Shown here piece by piece: positions 22,486 through 46,728 of a stretch of 48,191 nucleotides of DNA. The stretch lies in the NCBI GenBank assembly GCA_902812435.1, contig CADDZA010000004.1, forward strand, positions 1 through 48,191, given 5' to 3'. Position numbers and translations under genes: made by a program. Position 1 is the stretch's first letter, and the number at the start of each line of letters is the position of its first letter. Source of the DNA: Clostridia bacterium (GTDB lineage Bacteria > Bacillota > DSM-12270 > Thermacetogeniales > Thermacetogeniaceae). The notes beneath the pieces are model-generated. The model ran no database searches. It was not told where the DNA came from and saw only the letters and a list, made by a program, of their open reading frames with translations.

Positions 22486-22858
22486 GCAAGCAGTCTGGAT
22501 GATCGCGCGTGCAGGCGCCGAAAGGCGGCACGTGAGGAAAGTCCGGGCTCCACAGGGCAGGGTGCTGGGTAACGCCCAGTGGGGGTGACCCCAAGGCAAG
22601 TGCCACAGAAATGCAGACCGCCCGGTGCCGGTGAGGTGTCGGGTAAGGGTGGAACGGTGCGGTAAGAGCGCACCAGCGGTCAGGCGACTGGCCGGCTAGG
22701 TAAACCCCACCTGGAGCAAGACCGAGTAGGGAGGCAATGGAGTGGCCCGCTCCGCCTCCGGGTTGGTTGCTAGAGGCCCCAGGCAACTGGTGGCTCGAGA
22801 GAGATGATCATCACCTTCGGCCACGAAGGTACAGAACCCGGCTTACAGGACTGCTTGC
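22486..22858 (+). ncRNA. rnpB: RNase P RNA, bacterial type A
   Basis: This is the catalytic RNA that trims the 5' leader from tRNA precursors. The universal core is clear: GAGGAAAGTCCGGGCTCC (P4 5' side, about 22533-22550), CACAGAAATGCAGACCG-type sequence, and the 3' core ACAGAACCCGGCTTACAG (22831-22848). The closing helix P1 is GCAAGCAGTC (22486-22495) with GACTGCTTGC (22849-22858). The length of about 373 nt and the layout fit the ancestral A type. The ends may extend by a few bases. Open frames read across it are not genes. Confidence 0.96.
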
Positions 22859-22866
22859 TAAGAATA

Positions 22867-37432: not shown

Positions 37433-37538
37433 GCTGCTACCTCCATGAGTTTTTCCCTTATTTTTCGCAGGCATGTAAAAGCTTATTCAACAACCAACAA
37501 AAACTGCACTTGAATAATGAATACATCTGGCCGGACTG

Positions 37539-37585: not shown

Positions 37586-37635
37586 AATCCCAACGGCGGG
37601 ATTTGAAAGAACGAAATTAGGGGCAAGGATGTCCT
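37586..37635 (+). promoter_or_regulatory. Two-hexaloop ANTAR target RNA
   Basis: Hairpin P1: AATCCC (37586-37591), loop AACGGC, GGGATT (37598-37603). Hairpin P2: GGGGC (37620-37624), loop AAGGAT, GTCCT (37631-37635). Both loops have six bases with A at position 1 and G at position 4, the known signature of ANTAR protein binding. P2 uses GTCCT, which is also the 5' strand of the following terminator, so binding would prevent termination. The gene downstream encodes an ANTAR protein. Confidence 0.75.
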
Positions 37636-37669
37636 CAGGATGGATTACTATTCCGTAGAGGACTTTTTT
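37631..37669 (+). terminator. ANTAR-controlled leader terminator
   Basis: GTCCTC (37631-37636) pairs with GAGGAC (37658-37663), with an inner GGA/TCC step, followed by T6 (37664-37669). It lies 35 nt before the regulator start and overlaps ANTAR hairpin P2. Confidence 0.75.
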
Positions 37670-37703: not shown

Positions 37704-38300
37704 TTGGAGCAACCACGTGTTCTGGTCGCAATAGCTAAAGAAAATGTAAGAAGCAACGTCAAGCAGTTGTTGATCAGGGGAGGGTATCATGTTGTGGCGG
37801 ATGCCGAAGATGGATTTCAGGCCTTGCGGCAAGCGCGCACCTTGAGCCCGGACCTTGTACTTGCCGAAGCCGATTTACCCGGGATGAACGGTTTTGAGTT
37901 GGGAAGGATCCTTGCCAACGACAAAGTTGCGCCTATTCTACTGATTTCTAAGGAAACCTTTCTCTTCTCGCAGTACGATATGAAAAAGGCAAGGTCGCTC
38001 GAACTACCTATTGGCTACGTCACGCAACCGTTAACTGAGTCCAGTTTATTTCCCGCAATTGAGAGTCTGCTGAATTATAACAGGTATTACCAGATGCTTG
38101 AGTCGGAGATTAAAAATCTACAGGAAAAAATTGAAACAAGAAAAATTGTCGAACGGGCAAAAGGAATCCTGATGGAACAGTTGGGGCTCTCGGAAGCTGA
38201 TGCCTACCGTCGGATCCAGAAACAGAGCATGGATAAATGCCTTCCCATGCGAAAGGTGGCAGAGGCAATTATCCTTACGTATGACTTAAATAAAAAATAA
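37704..38300 (+). CDS. ANTAR antiterminator with degenerate receiver domain
   Basis: From TTG 37704 the product has 198 residues. Residues 1-115 form a response-regulator receiver fold, a coiled region follows (about 125-140), and the C-terminus is an ANTAR RNA-binding domain with KIVERAKGILMEQLGLSEADAYRRIQ and MRKVAEAIILT. ANTAR proteins bind two-hexaloop RNAs and stop termination. In the receiver the phosphorylated Asp is replaced by Glu55 (LVLAEADLPG), the acidic pocket at residues 9-13 reads AIAKE instead of an Asp pair, and the conserved Lys is Gln108 (YVTQPL). Normal phosphorylation is thus unlikely. The gene sits directly before glnA, as ANTAR regulators of nitrogen genes do in Clostridia. 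Confidence 0.92.
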   Translation: MEQPRVLVAIAKENVRSNVKQLLIRGGYHVVADAEDGFQALRQARTLSPDLVLAEADLPGMNGFELGRILANDKVAPILLISKETFLFSQYDMKKARSLELPIGYVTQPLTESSLFPAIESLLNYNRYYQMLESEIKNLQEKIETRKIVERAKGILMEQLGLSEADAYRRIQKQSMDKCLPMRKVAEAIILTYDLNKK

Positions 38301-38308
38301 AATAGTCT

Positions 38309-38337
38309 TTAGCTAGTTGCGCATTTTATCGTATAAT
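38309..38337 (+). promoter_or_regulatory. glnA promoter
   Basis: A consensus TATAAT (38332-38337) has TTAGCT (38309-38314) 17 nt upstream. glnA may therefore also be transcribed apart from the ANTAR gene. Confidence 0.5.
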
Positions 38338-38367
38338 GGCCTAAGAAAAACAAGTAGGAGGAGCGAC

Positions 38368-39699
38368 ATGATTAGGAAGACCAAAGAAGATGTTCTCAGC
38401 CTGGTAGAGGACCGTGGGGTACAGTTTATCAGGCTCCAATTTACGGATATTTTAGGAACACTAAAAAATGTGGCGATCACTGTCGAACAACTGGAGAAAG
38501 CTCTCAACGAAGGAATTATGTTTGACGGTTCATCGATCGAGGGTTTTGTGAGAATCGAAGAATCCGATATGTATCTGGTTCCCGACCCGAATACCTTTGT
38601 GATTTTTCCATGGCGCGGGCGCGAGGGTGCAGTTGGACGACTGATCTGCGATATCTATAACCCGGACGGAACACCTTTTGCCGGCTGCCCGCGTTATGTC
38701 CTCAAACAGGTGTTGTCGGAGGCGGCCGAGTTGGGTTACACCATGAATGTGGGTCCCGAGGCTGAGTTTTTCCTCTTTAACACGGATCAGTCTGGCGGCC
38801 CCACGGTTTCCACCCATGATGACGGGGGATATTTTGACTTGAGTCCCCTCGACCGCGGCGAGGATACCCGTCGCGATATGGTGTTGGCCTTAAAGGAAAT
38901 GGGGTTCGAGGTGGAAGCCTCCCATCACGAGGTGGCTCCTGGACAGCACGAGATAGATTTCAAGTACGATGATGCCTTGACAACTGCCGATAACGTCGTG
39001 ACCTTTAAATATGTGGTACGGGCCATTGCGCAGTTACACGGGCTGCACGCAACCTTCATGCCGAAGCCGGTTTACGGAATTGCAGGTTCCGGCATGCACG
39101 TTAACCAGTCACTCTTTTCCAACGGAGTCAATGCCTTTTATGATCCCGGTCAGCCCCTGCAACTGAGCAAAATCGCCATGCACTATCTTGGAGGCCTGCT
39201 TGCTCATGCCAAGGCCTATACAGCGATTACCAATCCTCTTGTCAATTCATATAAGCGGCTTGTTTCCGGCTATGAGGCCCCGGTTTACATTGCCTGGTCT
39301 CCCAGAAACAGGAGCCCCCTGGTTAGAGTCCCGGCACGCCGGGGAAACGGAACAAGTTTTGAGTTGCGCAGCCCTGATCCATCGTGTAACCCGTACCTGG
39401 CCTTCGCCGTCATCCTCAAGGCCGGGCTTGACGGGATTAAGAAACAGATTGAACCTCCCCCATCAGTAGACCAGAACATTTACGAGATGTCTCCAGAGGA
39501 GCTTTCCAGGCTGGGAATCGGATGTCTTCCGGGCAGCCTCGGAGAAGCGTTGGACGAGCTTCGCAGGGACACCGTAATCCAGGAAGCGCTGGGTCCACAT
39601 ATCTACGAGAAATTCCTGACTGCTAAGACCCTCGAATGGGAGGAATACCGGATCCAGGTACACCCCTGGGAAAGGAAAATGTATTTAACCAGGTACTAA
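38368..39699 (+). CDS. glnA: Glutamine synthetase type I
   Basis: This enzyme joins ammonia to glutamate using ATP. From ATG 38368 (site GGAGGAG) the product has 443 residues, the length of the Bacillus-type GSI-alpha group, which is regulated by feedback and not by adenylylation. Motifs include the N-terminal beta-grasp [15 protein letters not shown] and FDGSSIEGF, the metal Glu in GPEAEFFLF and [27 protein letters not shown], and [14 protein letters not shown]. It is the GS half of the GS-GOGAT pair whose GOGAT genes follow after a terminator. Confidence 0.97.
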
Positions 39700-39716: not shown

Positions 39717-39744
39717 GCCGCCTTGTTATAAAGGCGGCTTTTTT
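39717..39744 (+). terminator. glnA terminator
   Basis: GCCGCCTT (39717-39724) and AAGGCGGC (39731-39738) form a perfect 8-bp stem with a 6-nt loop, followed by T6. Confidence 0.9.
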
Positions 39745-39796
39745 GTCCTATGCAACGGGTTGGAACATGTATTTTGTATATATTGCGCGATATTGA

Positions 39797-39826
39797 TTGA
39801 TGAATGGGCATCTTATGTGGTATAAT
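39797..39826 (+). promoter_or_regulatory. Upstream promoter of the glutamate synthase operon
   Basis: TTGATG (39797-39802), an 18-nt spacer and consensus TATAAT (39821-39826) place a start near 39833. The transcript would run through the leader hexaloop and terminator at 39850-39906. Confidence 0.6.
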
Positions 39827-39849
39827 CGCGCCCAAGACAAAAAAGCATG

Positions 39850-39906
39850 TGGAGCAATGGCGTTCCATAAAGTTCCTTAAATGGGAGGGGGCGCCTTTGT
39901 TTTTTT
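39850..39906 (+). promoter_or_regulatory. ANTAR-like hexaloop overlapping a terminator
   Basis: TGGAGC (39850-39855), loop AATGGC, GTTCCA (39862-39867) is a hexaloop hairpin with A1 and G4. The terminator uses GGCGTTCC (39859-39866) with GGGGCGCC (39888-39895; two G-U pairs) and is followed by TTTGTTTTTTT. The two folds share the same bases and exclude each other. A second hairpin TTCCTT/GAGGGG (39873-39890) has the loop AAATGG, which does not match at position 4. Confidence 0.6.
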
Positions 39907-39956
39907 ACCGGGCTGTTACGGGCATTTAAATATATTGTATTCATACAGGGAATTCG

Positions 39957-39987
39957 TTGTATGGATTATGGCGCGGTGCTATAATCC
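39957..39987 (+). promoter_or_regulatory. Second operon promoter with an internal inverted repeat
   Basis: TTGTAT (39957-39962), a 17-nt spacer and TATAAT (39980-39985) with a TG one base before give a strong promoter downstream of the leader terminator. GGATTAT (39963-39969) and ATAATCC (39981-39987) are a perfect inverted repeat spanning the spacer and -10 box, placed like an operator. Confidence 0.6.
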
Positions 39988-40031
39988 CACTTAATCAAAG
40001 GGAAGATAAGTTTTCTTGGGGGAGGGTGAGG

Positions 40032-40772
40032 ATGGTAAGGATTGACGGCAAAGGTGTCCATTACCGTGAACTGAACGAGTTGATTAAGACGAAAGCCGAC
40101 GAGGGCGAGACGGAATTTTACCTTGATAATATCAACGGACAGCGCTACATCGGAACAGGCCTGTCCAATCCCGGGATAAAGATATACGTCAATGGTGTGC
40201 CGGGAAACGACCTGGCTACCTTCCTCAACGGCCCTGAAATCGTTGTTTATGACAATGCACAGGACGCTATCTGCAACACCATGAACTCGGGACAGGTAAC
40301 TGTGCACGGTCATGCAGGCGACGTTCTGGGATACGGAATGCGAGGCGGGCGCCTCTTTATTAAGGGTAATGTGGGCTATCGTGTGGGCATTCATATGAAA
40401 GAATACAAGAAACAGGTGCCGGTAATTGTAGCCGGGGGAACGGCAGGAGATTTCCTCGGTGAATATATGGCCGGCGGAATCCTGATCGTCCTGGGACTTG
40501 ACCGGAAACCGGGAGCCCCCCTTACCGGTGATTATCTGGGAACAGGTATGCATGGCGGGGTGATTTACCTGAGGGGCGATGTCGATCCGGCCAACCTGGG
40601 TAGGGAAGTTGCTGTTTTTGATGTTACCGACGAGGATTGGAAGGTTTTGGGCCAGCACCTTCAGGATTTTTGCGCATCCTTTGATTTTGATTACAACGAG
40701 GTCTCTTCGGAAAAGTTTTATAAATTGCTTCCTGTTTCACACCGTCCCTATGGGAGACTTTACGCCTATTAG
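40032..40772 (+). CDS. Glutamate synthase GXGXG-domain subunit
   Basis: The 246-residue protein is the C-terminal beta-helix domain of GltB as a separate subunit, as in archaeal-type split glutamate synthases. The repeated GxxGxxxGxxxxxG pattern is clear: GHAGDVLGYGMRGGRLFIKGNVGYRVGIHM, then GGTAGDFLGEYMAGGILIVLG and GDYLGTGMHGGVIYLRG (each here read as separate short repeats). The start is ATG 40032 after GGGTGAGG. It is first in a six-gene operon with lpd, a lipoyl protein, HdrBC, the amidotransferase and the FMN subunit. Confidence 0.92.
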   Translation: MVRIDGKGVHYRELNELIKTKADEGETEFYLDNINGQRYIGTGLSNPGIKIYVNGVPGNDLATFLNGPEIVVYDNAQDAICNTMNSGQVTVHGHAGDVLGYGMRGGRLFIKGNVGYRVGIHMKEYKKQVPVIVAGGTAGDFLGEYMAGGILIVLGLDRKPGAPLTGDYLGTGMHGGVIYLRGDVDPANLGREVAVFDVTDEDWKVLGQHLQDFCASFDFDYNEVSSEKFYKLLPVSHRPYGRLYAY

Positions 40773-40791: not shown

Positions 40792-42165
40792 ATGGATTTT
40801 CAGGTAATAGTAATTGGTGCGGGACCTGGTGGATATCCTGCGGCGCTTGAGGCTGCCCGGCTCGGCGCAAAGGCCTGCCTCATCGAGGCGGACAAGGTAG
40901 GAGGAACGTGTTTAAACCGTGGGTGCATTCCCACCAAGGCCCTCGTGGAGAGCGCCTTCGCCCTGAGGTTCGCCAAAAAAGCACCGGAATTCGGGGTCAA
41001 AACGGGAGAAATCGTTCTCGACTATCGCCGGGCGCGCGCCCGCCAGGAGGAAATAGTCTCTAAAGTTCGGGCAGGTGTTCATTTTCTGCTTGAAAAAAAC
41101 AAAATAACCCTGATTGCGGGGAAAGGCCGTTTAGTAGGTCCGCATCAGGTCGAGGTGGTAAGGAATGGCGGCCAAACCGAAGTCATCACGGGAGAAAAGA
41201 TCATCCTTGCCACGGGGTCGGAGCCGCTTCTGCCCGCGGGTTTGAGCTACGACGGGGATGCGGTGATTTCCAGCACGGACCTGTTGGAAATGGATGAACT
41301 CCCGTTATCCCTGCTCATCGTTGGGGGAGGCGTGATCGGCTGTGAATTTGCCGGGATTTATTCTGAAATGGGGGTCAACGTGACCCTGGTTGAGCCCCAG
41401 CCCACCATACTGCCCAACGTTGATGAGGATTTGGCCAGGAAGCTCCAGAGTCTTTTTAAGCAGAGAGGGGTTAATCTGCGGACGAAGACAAAGATCCGGA
41501 AAGTTAGCAGGACCGGCGGTGTTGTAAAGGTCGAGCTGGAGGACGGGTCAGAAATTGTTGCGGAAAAGGTGCTCCTTGCCGTTGGCCGCAGCCTGAACAC
41601 ATCCGGCCTCGGTTTAGAGGAAACAGGTGTGGCTCTGGGAGGCCGCGGCGAGGTGCTGGTAAATGAGCGGTTGGAGACCTCGGTGCCCGGTGTTTATGCA
41701 GTTGGAGATATAACGGGAAAGGCGTTGCTTGCCCACGTGGCTACCGCCCAGGGGCTTGCCGCCGCTTCCAATGCTTTGGGCCTGTCCAAAGAAGTGGATT
41801 ACAGCGCCGTTCCCAACTGCATCTTCACCTATCCGGAAATCGGAAGCGCCGGCTTGACCACGCGGGAGCTAAAGGCGGAAGGGATAGCTTTTAGAACCGG
41901 GAGATTCCCCTTTACCGCCAACGGGCGTGCCCTTTGTGAGGGGGATGCCGAAGGTTTCGTCAAGGTCCTGGCATCGGAGGAGAGCGGAAAGATTTTGGGG
42001 ATCCACATTATCGGGCCGCATGCAACCGAATTGATTGCGGAGGGGGCATTAGCCGTACGCTGGGGATTTACTTTGGACCAGCTTGAGGAAACCATTCACG
42101 CCCACCCCACACTGGCAGAGGCCCTGGCGGATGCCTGCCGGCTTGCTGACGGCAAGGGTTTTTAG
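40792..42165 (+). CDS. lpdA: Dihydrolipoamide dehydrogenase
   Basis: This FAD disulfide oxidoreductase moves electrons between NAD(H) and dihydrolipoyl groups. The 457-residue protein has the FAD loop VIGAGPGGYPAALEAARLG, the redox disulfide GGTCLNRGCIPTK, the NAD loop VGGGVIGCEFAGIYSEMG, AVGDITGKALLAHVA and the C-terminal His-Glu pair in HAHPTLAEAL. Lpd normally works with 2-oxoacid dehydrogenases or glycine cleavage; none of their genes is here. Instead it is next to a free lipoyl protein and HdrBC inside a glutamate synthase operon. Confidence 0.95.
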   Translation: MDFQVIVIGAGPGGYPAALEAARLGAKACLIEADKVGGTCLNRGCIPTKALVESAFALRFAKKAPEFGVKTGEIVLDYRRARARQEEIVSKVRAGVHFLLEKNKITLIAGKGRLVGPHQVEVVRNGGQTEVITGEKIILATGSEPLLPAGLSYDGDAVISSTDLLEMDELPLSLLIVGGGVIGCEFAGIYSEMGVNVTLVEPQPTILPNVDEDLARKLQSLFKQRGVNLRTKTKIRKVSRTGGVVKVELEDGSEIVAEKVLLAVGRSLNTSGLGLEETGVALGGRGEVLVNERLETSVPGVYAVGDITGKALLAHVATAQGLAAASNALGLSKEVDYSAVPNCIFTYPEIGSAGLTTRELKAEGIAFRTGRFPFTANGRALCEGDAEGFVKVLASEESGKILGIHIIGPHATELIAEGALAVRWGFTLDQLEETIHAHPTLAEALADACRLADGKGF

Positions 42166-42173
42166 AGATGCTT

Positions 42174-42204
42174 CGGCTTATCCTTGTGCCTGCTCCCGGA
42201 CTCC
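42174..42204. repeat. Partial intergenic repeat, copy 1
   Basis: CGGCTTATCCTTGTGCCTGC and the CTCCCGGACTC that follows are about 80 percent identical to 46753-46784, with one or two inserted bases. Both copies follow the end of a glutamate synthase operon gene. Copy 1 contains the left arm of the long stem. Confidence 0.4.
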
Positions 42205-42375
42205 GGTTGAACTCGCTTATAACGCGTCGCAGACGGCAGCCGACCGGCTCCTTTGACGGCATCCATGCCGCAGAGTCGCCTGGCTCGACATCCTGTCTCT
42301 CCCCGGTTGCCGTTAACTGCTCCTCGTCAAAGCGAGGTAACAACCTCCGTAAGGTGCAAGGATAAGTGCAATTTT
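42177..42375 (+). other. Long-range stem enclosing a GC-rich structured intergenic segment
   Basis: The 289-bp gap between lpd and the lipoyl gene holds CTTATCCTTGTGCCT (42177-42191) and AGGTGCAAGGATAAG (42352-42366), a 15-pair stem (two G-U) closing 160 nt. Inside are CGGCA/TGCCG and CCTCG/CGAGG hairpins, the second within GTTA/TAAC. A short T5 follows the stem. This could be a structured leader RNA, an attenuator or a small mobile-element remnant with inverted ends. No known riboswitch class is recognised. No gene is seen. Confidence 0.45.
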
Positions 42376-42454
42376 TCATCCGTCAAATGGTGCTGTATGA
42401 GCGGCATGAAGGTCTATAAAGTAAAGTAATGAAATGTTTAAGGAGGTTTTGAAG

Positions 42455-42688
42455 ATGGAAGTTACCTTGCCGTTTCTTGCGGAAGATGTTGACGAAGCGA
42501 CAGTATCCTACTGGAAGGTTGAAGAGGGGGATCACGTCGCTGAGGAGGATGACCTGGTAGAAATGTCCACGAGCAAGGCGGTTTTCACTATCCCTTCACC
42601 GGTGGCCGGAACCGTCGAAGAGATTCTTGTTCAGGAAGGGGATACCGTCAAGGTAGGCCAGGTGCTCTGTATTATCAAAGAGGACTGA
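42455..42688 (+). CDS. Free-standing lipoyl-domain protein
   Basis: The 77-residue protein is a single biotinyl/lipoyl domain: MEVTLPFLAEDVDEATVSYWKVEEGD, then Lys41 in STSKAVFTIPSPVAGTV, and VQEGDTVKVGQVLCII. The hairpin motif resembles lipoylated domains (ETDKA) more than biotinylated ones (AMKM), so Lys41 should carry lipoate. No E2 core or E3-binding domain is attached. The start is ATG 42455, eight bases after AAGGAGG. Placed between Lpd and HdrBC it resembles the LbpA carriers of sHdr sulfur systems, although this operon is built around glutamate synthase. Confidence 0.88.
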   Translation: MEVTLPFLAEDVDEATVSYWKVEEGDHVAEEDDLVEMSTSKAVFTIPSPVAGTVEEILVQEGDTVKVGQVLCIIKED

Positions 42689-42753
42689 TGGCCGTCAATC
42701 CGTCTTTATACTGAAATTTAATTGAAATTGCCTATAGAAAAGAGGAGAAACTG

Positions 42754-44109
42754 GTGGCCACCAAGTATGCGGTTTTTTGGGGATGTCAGATTCCTTCTCG
42801 TCTTCCTTTTTTCGAAAAATCGATTCGCCTTGTCTTAGAACAGATCGGGATAGAGATCATTGATTTGCCCGGATTTACCTGCTGCCCCGAAAAAACCCTC
42901 GTTAAGAGCTATTCGGAGGATACCTGGTTATTAACGGCAGCCCGCAACCTAGCGGTGGCGGAGGCTTCGGGTTTACCCCTCCTTACCCCCTGTAACGGGT
43001 GCTACAGCACTTTAAAAACTGTTTCGGTAAAGATCAAAGACTCGGTGGATCTAAAGGAAAGGGTGTCATCCCGCTTGCGGGAGATTAACCTCGACTTGAA
43101 AGGCAGCATTGTAGTCAAGCACCTGGTTGAGGTCCTGCATGACGACGTGGGCCCGGCGAAGATCAGTAGGCAGGTAAAACACCCTCTGGTGGGTATGCGG
43201 ATTGCCGTTCACTACGGATGCCACCTGATCCGTCCCAGTGCCCAGTTGCGATTTGATGATCCCATCCACCCGGAAAAGTTGGATACGCTGGTACGCGCGC
43301 TGGGTGCAGAACCCTGCAGCTATGATACTAAGATGCTTTGCTGCGGAAGCGGGCTGGGTTTTGCCGGGGCACAGGAGGATGCGACAATGTTGATGAGGAA
43401 AAAGCTGCTGGACATCAGGGACAGGGCCGATGCTCTCACCCTAGTCTGTCCTGCTTGCTTTATCCAGTATGACCAGAGACAGTTTGTTTTGCAGCGGCAG
43501 GGGGAGCAGTTGGGTATACCGGTTTTCGGGTACCAGGAACTGCTCGGCCTGGCCCTCGGACTGTCCGGGGATGCTTTGGGACTCGGTGAACACCGGGTGA
43601 AAACGGACGACTTTATCCGGTCCTGGCGGGAAAGGATGAGTATCAACAACAGGATTAAGGAACACCTTGATCTGGCTGCATTAAAAAAATGTTACAGCTG
43701 CGGTGCCTGTCTGGATGATTGTCCGGTTGCACAACTGGACGGGAGTTTTCAACCCAGGGAAGTCATCGGGGATTTACTAAAGGGAAATTTGGCCGGCCTT
43801 TTTCAAAATCAAACGATCTGGCAGTGCCTTGAGTGCCATACCTGTTCCGAACTCTGCCCCCAGAAGTTTGGCATGGAGAAGGTCTTTATCGTCTTAAAAG
43901 GCATGGCATCTGAACAGGGTTGCGCACCGTCACCGATTCAGGGGGGAATAAAAACGTTCTTGAAGACTGCCAGACTTGGAGCGGTTGACGACAAGGCGCG
44001 CAAGAAGCTTGGCCTGGAGGCTCTTCCACCCGGGGGAGAGGCTGAACTGCGAAAACTACTGGGCCTAACAGGACAAGAAGATGGGGGAGGATATCATGAG
44101 AGGAACTAA
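42754..44109 (+). CDS. HdrB-HdrC fusion (heterodisulfide reductase-like)
   Basis: The 451-residue protein joins two Hdr parts. Residues about 1-285 are HdrB-like with two CCG-type motifs: GFTCCPEK plus TPCNGCYS, and KMLCCGSGLGF plus VCPACFIQYD, which in methanogens hold noncubane 4Fe-4S clusters. Residues about 300-400 are HdrC-like with two ferredoxin sites, CYSCGACLDDCP and CLECHTCSELCP. HdrBC units pass two electrons to or from disulfides or quinone-like acceptors. The GTG start (42754) follows GAGGAG. The 3' end overlaps the amidotransferase gene by 14 bp. There is no HdrA in the window. Confidence 0.9.
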   Translation: MATKYAVFWGCQIPSRLPFFEKSIRLVLEQIGIEIIDLPGFTCCPEKTLVKSYSEDTWLLTAARNLAVAEASGLPLLTPCNGCYSTLKTVSVKIKDSVDLKERVSSRLREINLDLKGSIVVKHLVEVLHDDVGPAKISRQVKHPLVGMRIAVHYGCHLIRPSAQLRFDDPIHPEKLDTLVRALGAEPCSYDTKMLCCGSGLGFAGAQEDATMLMRKKLLDIRDRADALTLVCPACFIQYDQRQFVLQRQGEQLGIPVFGYQELLGLALGLSGDALGLGEHRVKTDDFIRSWRERMSINNRIKEHLDLAALKKCYSCGACLDDCPVAQLDGSFQPREVIGDLLKGNLAGLFQNQTIWQCLECHTCSELCPQKFGMEKVFIVLKGMASEQGCAPSPIQGGIKTFLKTARLGAVDDKARKKLGLEALPPGGEAELRKLLGLTGQEDGGGYHERN

Positions 44110-45229
44110 ACCACGCATTCCCTCAGGATGTGCCATAGTTGGGATTTTCAACAGGAAAGCAAAACGATTCAGCGGCTCAGATGTGCTGCGTTCCATCAGG
44201 ACAATGCACGATCGATCCAACGGTCTGGGGGGCGGCTTTGCCGGTTATGGCATTTACCCCGAGTACCGGGATCATTACGCCTTTCACCTCCTGTACGAGG
44301 ATAAGGCGAGCCAGCTGGAGACGGAAAGCTTCCTTGAGGAAAATTTCAATATCGACCGGAGTGAGCCGATTCCGACCAGGCCGCATCCGAACATCACCGA
44401 TCCGCCCATCCTCTGGCGTTACTTTTTACGCCTGAAACCTCACCATCAGGAAAGATTGCAAATAGAAAACGGCACCTGTGAACCTGCGATTCGCTCCGGA
44501 CAGGGAGACGAGAGGGATTTCGTGGTTCAACAGGTAATGTACATAAACCGGTACATCGGTGGAGCTTTTGTGGCGTCGAGCGGCAAGAACATGGGAGTTT
44601 TCAAGGGTGTCGGTTTTCCGGAAGACATCGGTGAATTTTTCCGGATTGATGAATACGAGGGGTACATGTGGACGGCCCATGGTCGTTTTCCTACGAACAC
44701 GCCCGGATGGTGGGGCGGTGCCCATCCCTTTACAATTCTAGACTGGTCTGTGGTACATAACGGTGAAATCTCTTCCTACGGAATAAACAAGCGCTATCTC
44801 GAAATGTTTGGCTACCACTGTACCCTTCAGACAGACACAGAAGTTATCGCTTACCTTTTTGATTTGCTGCACAGACGCCACGGACTCCCCCTTGAGGTAA
44901 CATGTATGGCTTTGGCGGCACCCTTCTGGAAGGATGTTGACCGTAATAAGGATGGTAAAGCCGAACTGGCCCGGGGGTTGCGCCAGGTTTACGGGTCGGC
45001 GTTGCTGAACGGCCCATTCAGCGTCCTGGTAGGATATAACGGCGGGATGATCGGGTTGACGGACCGGATCAAGCTAAGACCGCTGGTTTGCGCCGAAAAA
45101 GAGGATTACATGTATCTGGCAAGTGAAGAGAGCGCCATTCGGGAAATCTGCCCGGCACCCGACCGGGTTTGGGCTATCAAAGCCGGGGAACCGGTTATGG
45201 TGCAACTGGACGAGGGGGTGCAGCCATGA
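44096..45229 (+). CDS. Glutamate synthase amidotransferase (class II) subunit
   Basis: This N-terminal nucleophile glutaminase domain frees ammonia from glutamine and passes it to the FMN subunit. From ATG 44096 (GGGAGG) the product has 377 residues; the catalytic Cys is in PSGCAIVGIF, residue 12, implying removal of a short propeptide. WTAHGRFPTNTPGWWGGAHPF and VVHNGEISSYG are the glutamine-binding motifs. It is a separate subunit, as in archaeal GltS and GlxB proteins. Its stop overlaps the FMN subunit start (ATGA). Confidence 0.93.
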   Translation: MRGTKPRIPSGCAIVGIFNRKAKRFSGSDVLRSIRTMHDRSNGLGGGFAGYGIYPEYRDHYAFHLLYEDKASQLETESFLEENFNIDRSEPIPTRPHPNITDPPILWRYFLRLKPHHQERLQIENGTCEPAIRSGQGDERDFVVQQVMYINRYIGGAFVASSGKNMGVFKGVGFPEDIGEFFRIDEYEGYMWTAHGRFPTNTPGWWGGAHPFTILDWSVVHNGEISSYGINKRYLEMFGYHCTLQTDTEVIAYLFDLLHRRHGLPLEVTCMALAAPFWKDVDRNKDGKAELARGLRQVYGSALLNGPFSVLVGYNGGMIGLTDRIKLRPLVCAEKEDYMYLASEESAIREICPAPDRVWAIKAGEPVMVQLDEGVQP

Positions 45230-46728
45230 GGACGTACATTCCACCTGAGTTTATTGTAAAGATCGATCACCTTCGCTGCCGTCGCTGCAAGCGATGCATC
45301 ATGAACTGTGGTTTTGGGACATTAAGCTTCCAGGACCGGGTCGTGGCCGATAACCACAAGTGTGTGGCCTGCCACCGGTGCGTTACATTTTGCCCGGAAG
45401 GGGCCATCACCATTGAAAATAACCCCCTTTCTTTCAAGGCGAACGAACACTGGACACCTGCGGTTATCAAATCCATCTACAAGCAGGCCGAAACAGGCGG
45501 CATGCTCTTTACCGGGATGGGAAACGACCGAAAGTATATCAGCTATTTTGATCAGCTCGCCCTGGATGCCTGTCAGGTGACGAATCCATCCATTGATCCG
45601 CTGCGCGAGCCGATGGAACTACGGACGTACCTGGGAAGCAAGCCGAACTCGCTGCAGGTCGAGATGAAAGACGGGAATTATACCCTGACAACAGAAATGG
45701 GGCCGCAGATCAAGCTGGAAACCCCCATTATCTTCGCCGGGATGTCCTTCGGTTCCATCAGTTTAAATGCTCATAAGGCCCTCGCAAGGGCAGCTTCCAT
45801 CTGCGGAACACTGATGAACACCGGCGAGGGGGGGCTGCACCGGGAGCTTTACCCTTACAGCAGCAACATTATCGTGCAGGTCGCCTCGGGGAGGTTCGGC
45901 GTCAACCAGGAGTACCTCGACCGGGCTGCCGCGGTGGAAATCAAAATCGGGCAGGGAGCAAAACCGGGTATTGGCGGGCACTTACCGGGGGAAAAGATCA
46001 ACCAGGAAGTTTCCCAGACGCGCATGATCCCCGAGGGGACAGACGCCATTTCCCCTGCACCCCACCACGACATTTATTCTATCGAAGACCTGTCCCAGTT
46101 GATCTACGCCTTGAAGGAGGCCACCCGCTATCAAAAGCCTGTCGGCGTGAAGATCGCCGCGGTCCACAACGTGGCCGCGATCGCGAGCGGTATCGCCCGG
46201 GCGGGTGCAGACTTCATTTACATTGACGGTATGAGAGGAGGTACCGGCGCAACTCCTACCGTCATCCGGGATAACATCGGTATTCCCATCGAGATGGCGA
46301 TAGCTGCGGTAGACGACCGTTTGCGGCAGGAAGGGATCCGCAACTGGGTTACCCTCATAGCAGCCGGTGGAATCAGGTCCAGCGGTGATGTAGCCAAGGC
46401 AATTGCCCTGGGCGCCGATGTTGTAGCAATCGGCACGGCAGCCCTGGTGGCCATGGGATGCCGGTTATGCCAGAAATGCTACACCGGCAACTGTTCCTGG
46501 GGTATAGCCACCCAACGTCCTGAACTGGTAAGGCGCCTTGAGCCCGAAGAGGCAACCGAAAGGCTGGTTAACCTGGTGAGAGGATGGTCCCTCGAACTGA
46601 AAGAAATACTTGGTGCCTTGGGTGTCAATGCCATCGAAAGCCTTAGAGGAAGCCGTGAGCGCTTGCGGGGAATCGGTTTGAACAAGACCGAACTAGAGAT
46701 CCTCGGAGTAAAACCTGCCGGCCGCTAA
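45226..46728 (+). CDS. gltB: Glutamate synthase FMN subunit with N-terminal ferredoxin domain
   Basis: The 500-residue protein has two 4Fe-4S sites at the N-terminus (RCRRCKRCIMNCG and KCVACHRCVTFCPEG), then the FMN-binding glutamate synthase barrel: FAGMSFGSISLNAHKAL, MNTGEGGLHRE, QGAKPGIGGHLPG, DFIYIDGMRGGTGATP, AAGGIRSSGDVAKAIALGADVVAIGTA and the 3Fe-4S-type cysteines in CRLCQKCYTGNC. It reduces 2-iminoglutarate to glutamate. The extra ferredoxin domain shows that electrons come from an iron-sulfur donor. No GltD flavoprotein gene is present. Confidence 0.95.
   Translation: MRTYIPPEFIVKIDHLRCRRCKRCIMNCGFGTLSFQDRVVADNHKCVACHRCVTFCPEGAITIENNPLSFKANEHWTPAVIKSIYKQAETGGMLFTGMGNDRKYISYFDQLALDACQVTNPSIDPLREPMELRTYLGSKPNSLQVEMKDGNYTLTTEMGPQIKLETPIIFAGMSFGSISLNAHKALARAASICGTLMNTGEGGLHRELYPYSSNIIVQVASGRFGVNQEYLDRAAAVEIKIGQGAKPGIGGHLPGEKINQEVSQTRMIPEGTDAISPAPHHDIYSIEDLSQLIYALKEATRYQKPVGVKIAAVHNVAAIASGIARAGADFIYIDGMRGGTGATPTVIRDNIGIPIEMAIAAVDDRLRQEGIRNWVTLIAAGGIRSSGDVAKAIALGADVVAIGTAALVAMGCRLCQKCYTGNCSWGIATQRPELVRRLEPEEATERLVNLVRGWSLELKEILGALGVNAIESLRGSRERLRGIGLNKTELEILGVKPAGR

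Follow-up and report, generated by a model that had tools for sequence, protein, structure and literature searches.

The window, meaning the whole stretch of 48,191 nucleotides analysed here, is contig C4 of a 1.95-Mb genome that is 85% complete, so further ANTAR genes or leaders of this genome may be missing. From position 37586 onward it carries a two-loop leader, an ANTAR gene, glnA, a terminator, the region under study and a split glutamate synthase (GOGAT) cluster; all genes, promoters, hairpins and terminators of these two operons lie on the plus strand. The ANTAR gene (37704..38300; PF03861, 82.1 bits; PF00072, 45.3 bits), with a guessed TTG start at 37704, codes for a regulator with a degenerate receiver domain and is the single match in the genome. 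It adjoins the 5′ side of glnA (38368..39699), the gene of a type I glutamine synthetase (GS; PF00120, 466.3 bits), and a TATAAT-like box at 38320-38340, just 5′ of glnA, suggests a second, leader-free glnA start. An intrinsic terminator of 8 pairs followed by T6 (39717..39745) lies behind glnA, between both operons. The first gene of the GOGAT operon encodes the GXGXG-domain subunit (40032..40772; PF01493, 117.8 bits), and the Pfam scan assigned to the rest of the cluster (40792..46728) a pyridine nucleotide-disulphide oxidoreductase, a lipoyl domain protein, a CCG/4Fe-4S protein, a class-II amidotransferase and a glutamate synthase subunit. Judging by gene order and strand, the cluster probably forms one operon. 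The dihydrolipoamide-dehydrogenase-like, lipoyl-domain and CCG/4Fe-4S proteins encoded between the GOGAT subunits (40792-44109) constitute an electron-transfer set unusual for a glutamate synthase cluster. Elsewhere in the window, a bacterial RNase P RNA of class A was found at 22487-22861 (305 bits).

In all, the genome yielded a single ANTAR gene and two leaders judged convincing. One of these precedes the ANTAR-glnA operon (37586..37669) and is a canonical two-hexaloop leader, in which P1 (37586-37603, AATCCC[AACGGC]GGGATT) and P2 (37620-37635, GGGGC[AAGGAT]GTCCT) are followed by a terminator (37631-37663, GTCCTC..GAGGAC) and a T tract, T6. An ANTAR leader had been proposed at 37586 in the initial annotation, and all of its parts could be read in the sequence; it is kept in both congeneric species. 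The regulator is a REC-ANTAR protein, with Rv1626 (1s8n) and EutV (6wsh) as the closest PDB entries, and in the alignment K, R and Y stand where EutV contacts RNA through K143, K147 and Tyr164. The acidic pair of its receiver is replaced (RVLVAIAKEN) and Glu occupies the phospho-acceptor site in each of the three species of the genus, which makes the domain a pseudo-receiver; most other relatives have Asp at the phospho-acceptor position, yet the acidic pair is missing there, too. Control by phosphorylation is therefore unlikely. A binding partner or ligand more likely controls the regulator, by analogy with AmiR and NasT, which are controlled in this way.

Anatomy and conservation of the GOGAT leader

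The proposed ANTAR binding site before GOGAT is P2, an antiterminator hairpin at 39848..39869 that reads TGTGGAGC[AATGGC]GTTCCATA and carries an A1/G4 hexaloop at 39856-39861. It overlaps the intrinsic terminator of the leader (39859..39906), in which GGCGTTCC (39859-39866) pairs with GGGGCGCC (39888-39895) in 8 pairs, two of them G.U, and is followed by TTTG and T7 (39900-39906). The 3′ arm of P2 doubles as the 5′ arm of the terminator, the common stretch being 39862-39866. The loop, the eight-pair terminator and T7 all lie where the initial annotation had put them. P2 alone folds at −8.1 kcal/mol, and the full leader favours the terminator, at −22.7. When the local 331 nt were shuffled 2000 times with dinucleotides preserved, a scan for an A1/G4 hexaloop overlapping a terminator found one in only 3 cases. 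The same scan over 450 kb of relatives' loci gave 36 real matches versus 0-3 per shuffle, an enrichment that describes neighbourhoods of ANTAR and GOGAT genes rather than whole genomes, since the loci had been picked around such genes. The first settings of the scanner missed both leaders of the window and were loosened after both had been inspected; the window therefore cannot serve as an independent test of the scan; the shuffles do, as do model R2 and the fresh genomes (both below). No Rfam element was found at 39797-39906; a lncRNA hit outside this region was put down to chance.

Between glnA and P2, the only promoter found that could start a leader RNA is the distal one at 39797..39826, TTGATG-18 nt-TATAAT with an extended −10 (TGG), which has 10 of 12 consensus positions plus TG and a predicted start near 39833. 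The initial annotation had pointed to another A1/G4 hexaloop upstream. The hairpin GATG[AATGGG]CATC does exist at 39799..39812, 37 nt from P2, but it overlaps the −35 and the spacer of this promoter, and given a start near 39833 it falls outside the RNA. The ~15 nt that remain before P2 have no self-complementarity and thus hold no other P1; the distal −10, itself predicted only, ends 23 nt before 39850, too close for a P1 to fit. For the upstream hairpin to serve as P1, transcription would have to start upstream of 39797 or to read through from glnA. This reading gains from the presence of the hairpin and from its retention in one congener (G001); in the other (G002) it is still present, with the loop altered to AGTGGG and a single G.U pair. 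We nevertheless consider it very improbable. The hairpin sits inside an extended −10 promoter whose hexamers are invariant, a strong terminator parts glnA from the GOGAT region, and nothing was found that points to a transcript start upstream of 39797. Shuffling the same stretch 5000 times produced similar hairpins in 193 cases, or in 51 when G.U pairs were disallowed (1-4%), and the hairpin is absent from the minimum-energy fold of a longer RNA, where GGGC pairs with GCCC instead. The linker of 37 nt is also long compared with the 5-12 nt of eut leaders, in which 14 nt already impaired induction (PMC3369931), and the 2-25 nt allowed for actinobacterial ANTAR targets (PMC8164766); insertion of 20 nt into a linker abolished antitermination (PMC8934654). 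The upstream hexaloop was thus rejected as P1.

P2 shows two features that are classical for ANTAR targets, the A1/G4 hexaloop and the overlap with an intrinsic terminator, and an ANTAR gene is present in the same genome, directly before glnA and 5′ of the GOGAT leader. A P1 a short linker upstream is absent, the sole candidate lying 37 nt away in promoter DNA, and for this reason the GOGAT leader was not filed as a classical two-hexaloop member. With the upstream loop outside the RNA, the GOGAT leader is a one-hexaloop leader.

The two congeners retain the distal promoter, with both hexamers invariant, as well as P2 and the terminator. Of the loops for which conservation had been in question, that of P2 is therefore kept in both, and that of the upstream hairpin only in G001. 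Among the three species, 1 of 20 positions varies in P2, namely the free position 3 of the loop, as against 5 of 21 (24%) in the terminator loop and 10 of 34 in the 5′ UTR. The 3′ arm of the terminator reads GGGGCGCC, GGGACGCC and GGAACGCC, and all three pair with an unchanged GGCGTTCC; every change in the terminator arms swaps a G.U for an A-U, so that pairing is preserved. With three sequences only, the congener comparison by itself provides modest evidence for the leader. Pair covariation was high on alignment A2, but its rows had been chosen for pairing, and it was not counted as support.

A second, proximal promoter, TTGTAT-17-TATAAT with an extended −10, was read 3′ of the terminator at 39957..39985 and would bypass it. 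Its counterparts occur in the congeners and in sister genera (L005, L006, L007, L008 and L009), in which no leader was found before GOGAT. Part of GOGAT transcription would hence escape the switch, and since this promoter past the terminator recurs in leader-less sister genera, the switch would add to GOGAT expression rather than set its level. Taken further, GOGAT could be transcribed from the proximal promoter alone, the leader being a relic or the end of an unrelated short RNA that possibly titrates the ANTAR protein as EutX does. The recurrence of the extended −10 promoter and of a TTGTATTCAT element in leader-less sister genera fits such a scheme. It is at odds with the congeners, which keep the distal hexamers, P2 and the terminator pairing while 21% of the positions in the proximal −35 to −10 stretch vary, mostly in the spacer, and with the leaders that recur before GOGAT in other families. 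We judge expression from the proximal promoter alone to be quite unlikely.

Association of the motif with ANTAR and nitrogen genes

Covariance model R2 was built from the P2-terminator modules of 17 leaders classed as two-loop, taken from other genera and none from that of the window. Its match at 39850-39903 is the best site in its own genome (30.3 bits, E 2.7e-4), and the model also finds the corresponding sites in both congeners. Model R1 was built from 22 one- and two-loop modules, including that of the window, and was used with a cut-off of E ≤ 0.005. R1 was applied to a fresh set of 179 genomes from the phylum, each at least 95% complete. It matched 48 of the 91 that bear an ANTAR gene, versus 5 of the 88 that do not (Fisher p about 8e-13, with no correction for relatedness); the 43 ANTAR-bearing genomes left without a match count against the switch proposed below. 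In the first 81 relatives, with the training genomes removed, the corresponding counts were 14/30 and 1/33. The genes behind 55 fresh matches, which had played no part in choosing the matches, were in at least 46 cases GS type I, GS type III, ammonium transporter (Amt), GOGAT, GDH, P-II, NifH or ANTAR genes. Both tests avoid circularity, because R2 was trained without this genus and the R1 sample was fresh. A possible third target in the congeners (G001, C15:3845; G002, C53:53596) was dismissed as a terminator behind an ABC permease gene, with no leader.

In many related leaders, P2 is preceded at a distance of 55-105 nt by a DNA element, TGTATACAATAT(T); GTATACA/TGTATAC was present in 34 of 116 stretches upstream of P2 versus 2.3 in shuffles. 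A genus variant, TGTATTCAT, precedes both operons, with the variants of the window near 37517-37526 (reverse) and 39935-39945. The element may be the operator of a DNA-binding nitrogen regulator.

The surveys bear on whether the GOGAT terminator answers to an ANTAR protein at all. It could be a genuine terminator or attenuator that works independently of ANTAR, either as a constitutive limit on the distal promoter or under another factor, with an incidental hexaloop. Binding of P2 by ANTAR is a prediction, the proximal promoter could supply all regulated expression, and ordinary terminators can mimic the motif, as that at G001:C15:3845 does. This account would, however, leave to coincidence that a model of ANTAR P2 modules held out from the genus ranks the site first, that the motif class is strongly associated with ANTAR and nitrogen genes, and that the hexaloop and its closing pair are kept where the terminator loop varies at 24%. 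We therefore regard an ANTAR-independent terminator as unlikely.

Recurrence of the one-hexaloop form

For EutV of E. faecalis, induction was lost when P1 was deleted, and antitermination failed when the linker was made longer (PMC3369931, PMC8934654). The working model of EutV takes the first hexaloop as a required recruitment site. Two stem-loops were bound better than one. In the crystal structure, there is one loop per dimer (PMC8934654). Since P1 deletion abolished induction, one loop should not suffice by this precedent. Among 56 fresh matches, a hexaloop hairpin was found no more than 27 nt upstream in 10 and not in 46, the latter being an upper estimate, because a non-canonical P1 may have gone unseen in some leaders that were called one-loop and whose promoter is distant or weak. 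The test detects P1 where it is present, given that an upstream hexaloop was found in 19 of 60 matches from relatives where chance gives about 1. Where the promoter of a fresh match was strong, the distance from the end of the −10 to P2 is 36-79 nt in two-loop leaders, versus 8-33 nt in 18 of 29 one-loop leaders. The firm core consists of 13 fresh one-loop leaders with a strong −10 ending at most 25 nt before P2, which leaves no space for a P1. In four cases (L245, L266, L274 and G071), only 8-9 nt separate the end of a near-perfect TTGACA-17/18-TATAAT from P2, and the hairpin thus stands almost at the 5′ end. The GOGAT leader of the window (23 nt) falls in this close-promoter one-loop group. 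The idea that a longer terminator compensates for the missing P1 was unsupported, as the lengths are alike in one-loop and two-loop leaders (60.4 versus 62.2 nt, p 0.41).

The comparison across genomes speaks for leaders of nitrogen genes in Firmicutes working with one loop. We consider it rather probable that one-hexaloop ANTAR attenuators prevail at nitrogen-assimilation genes across anaerobic Firmicutes; there, a pseudo-receiver ANTAR protein would capture a single hairpin, often few nucleotides from the 5′ end, without an EutV-type recruitment hairpin. In two genomes (G065 and G100; L086:8210-8326 and L294:161-283), tandem one-hexaloop terminator units precede the GOGAT amidotransferase gene, like serial gates.

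Proposed switch and comparison with known systems

We propose, at a probability of roughly 70%, that 39827-40031 is the 5′ leader of GOGAT with a one-hexaloop ANTAR attenuator, at which binding of P2 by the REC-ANTAR protein would cause antitermination, GS and GOGAT rising together. Transcription from 39797-39826 would begin near 39833. With the regulator inactive, 39859-39866 would pair with 39888-39895, and RNA polymerase would stop at the T tract. The active REC-ANTAR protein (37704-38300) would bind the A1/G4 loop and the closing pair of P2 as the hairpin emerges and would keep the arm 39862-39869 out of the terminator, so that GOGAT is transcribed. The same protein would also target the two-loop leader that precedes its own gene and glnA, so that GS and GOGAT rise together, and the promoter at 39957-39985 would yield ungated GOGAT expression. 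That the leader alone folds better as a terminator is to be expected, but it means that the protein must act fast. That the ANTAR protein binds P2, that binding causes antitermination and not repression, and that nitrogen limitation is the signal are predictions, and for the direction of control we infer antitermination from the precedent of EutV, NasR and NitR.

The initial annotation suggested that one regulator coordinates GS and GOGAT through RNA. This is the simplest reading, because the glnA operon, which has a two-loop leader of its own, begins with the only ANTAR gene detected in the genome; an ANTAR-type leader stands before GOGAT, and the NitR precedent (PMC6316151) fits. The part of that proposal that did not hold is the second hexaloop. 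Probably, then, the start of the GOGAT transcript folds into a one-loop RNA switch that is held open by the neighbouring ANTAR protein, which can tune both nitrogen-assimilation operons.

A GS/GOGAT regulon under ANTAR is not new. ANTAR control of GOGAT/GS was predicted in 2012 for the Firmicutes Desulfotomaculum reducens and D. acetoxidans (PMC3369931). NitR of Clostridium saccharobutylicum (Stutz 2007) is described in PMC6316151 as an ANTAR protein that induces GS/GOGAT genes by antitermination under nitrogen limitation; our likening of the two systems follows that description. The one-loop attenuator is new: in the open-licence literature, to which the search was confined (subscription papers lay outside its scope), no description of one was found, and all published ANTAR-target searches that it covered required two hexaloops. 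If one loop suffices, the minimal site of the EutV crystal would be a working switch too, published target catalogues would miss much of the Firmicutes regulon, and a single protein would have a compact route to co-regulate GS and GOGAT.

Like the two-hairpin ANTAR leaders of EutV/eut, NasR/nasF and AmiR/amiE (Ramesh 2012, PMC3369931), the GOGAT leader stands before nitrogen-assimilation genes and uses the 3′ arm of an A1/G4 hexaloop hairpin as the 5′ arm of a terminator. Unlike them, it has the second hairpin only; the first, the recruitment hairpin needed by EutV, is missing and cannot fit. Compared by mechanism only, it resembles the RAT-type antiterminators (BglG/SacY), in which one protein-stabilised hairpin excludes one terminator, but their protein family and RNA motif are unrelated to ANTAR. 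The minimal site of Walshe 2022 (PMC8934654), at which an ANTAR dimer contacts one hexaloop at a time, is alike as well. That study asks whether single-hexaloop sites exist and with what role, a question that, if one loop suffices, short leaders would make directly testable. Single loops were expected there where no transcription clock runs; the GOGAT loop, in contrast, overlaps a terminator, so the clock runs.
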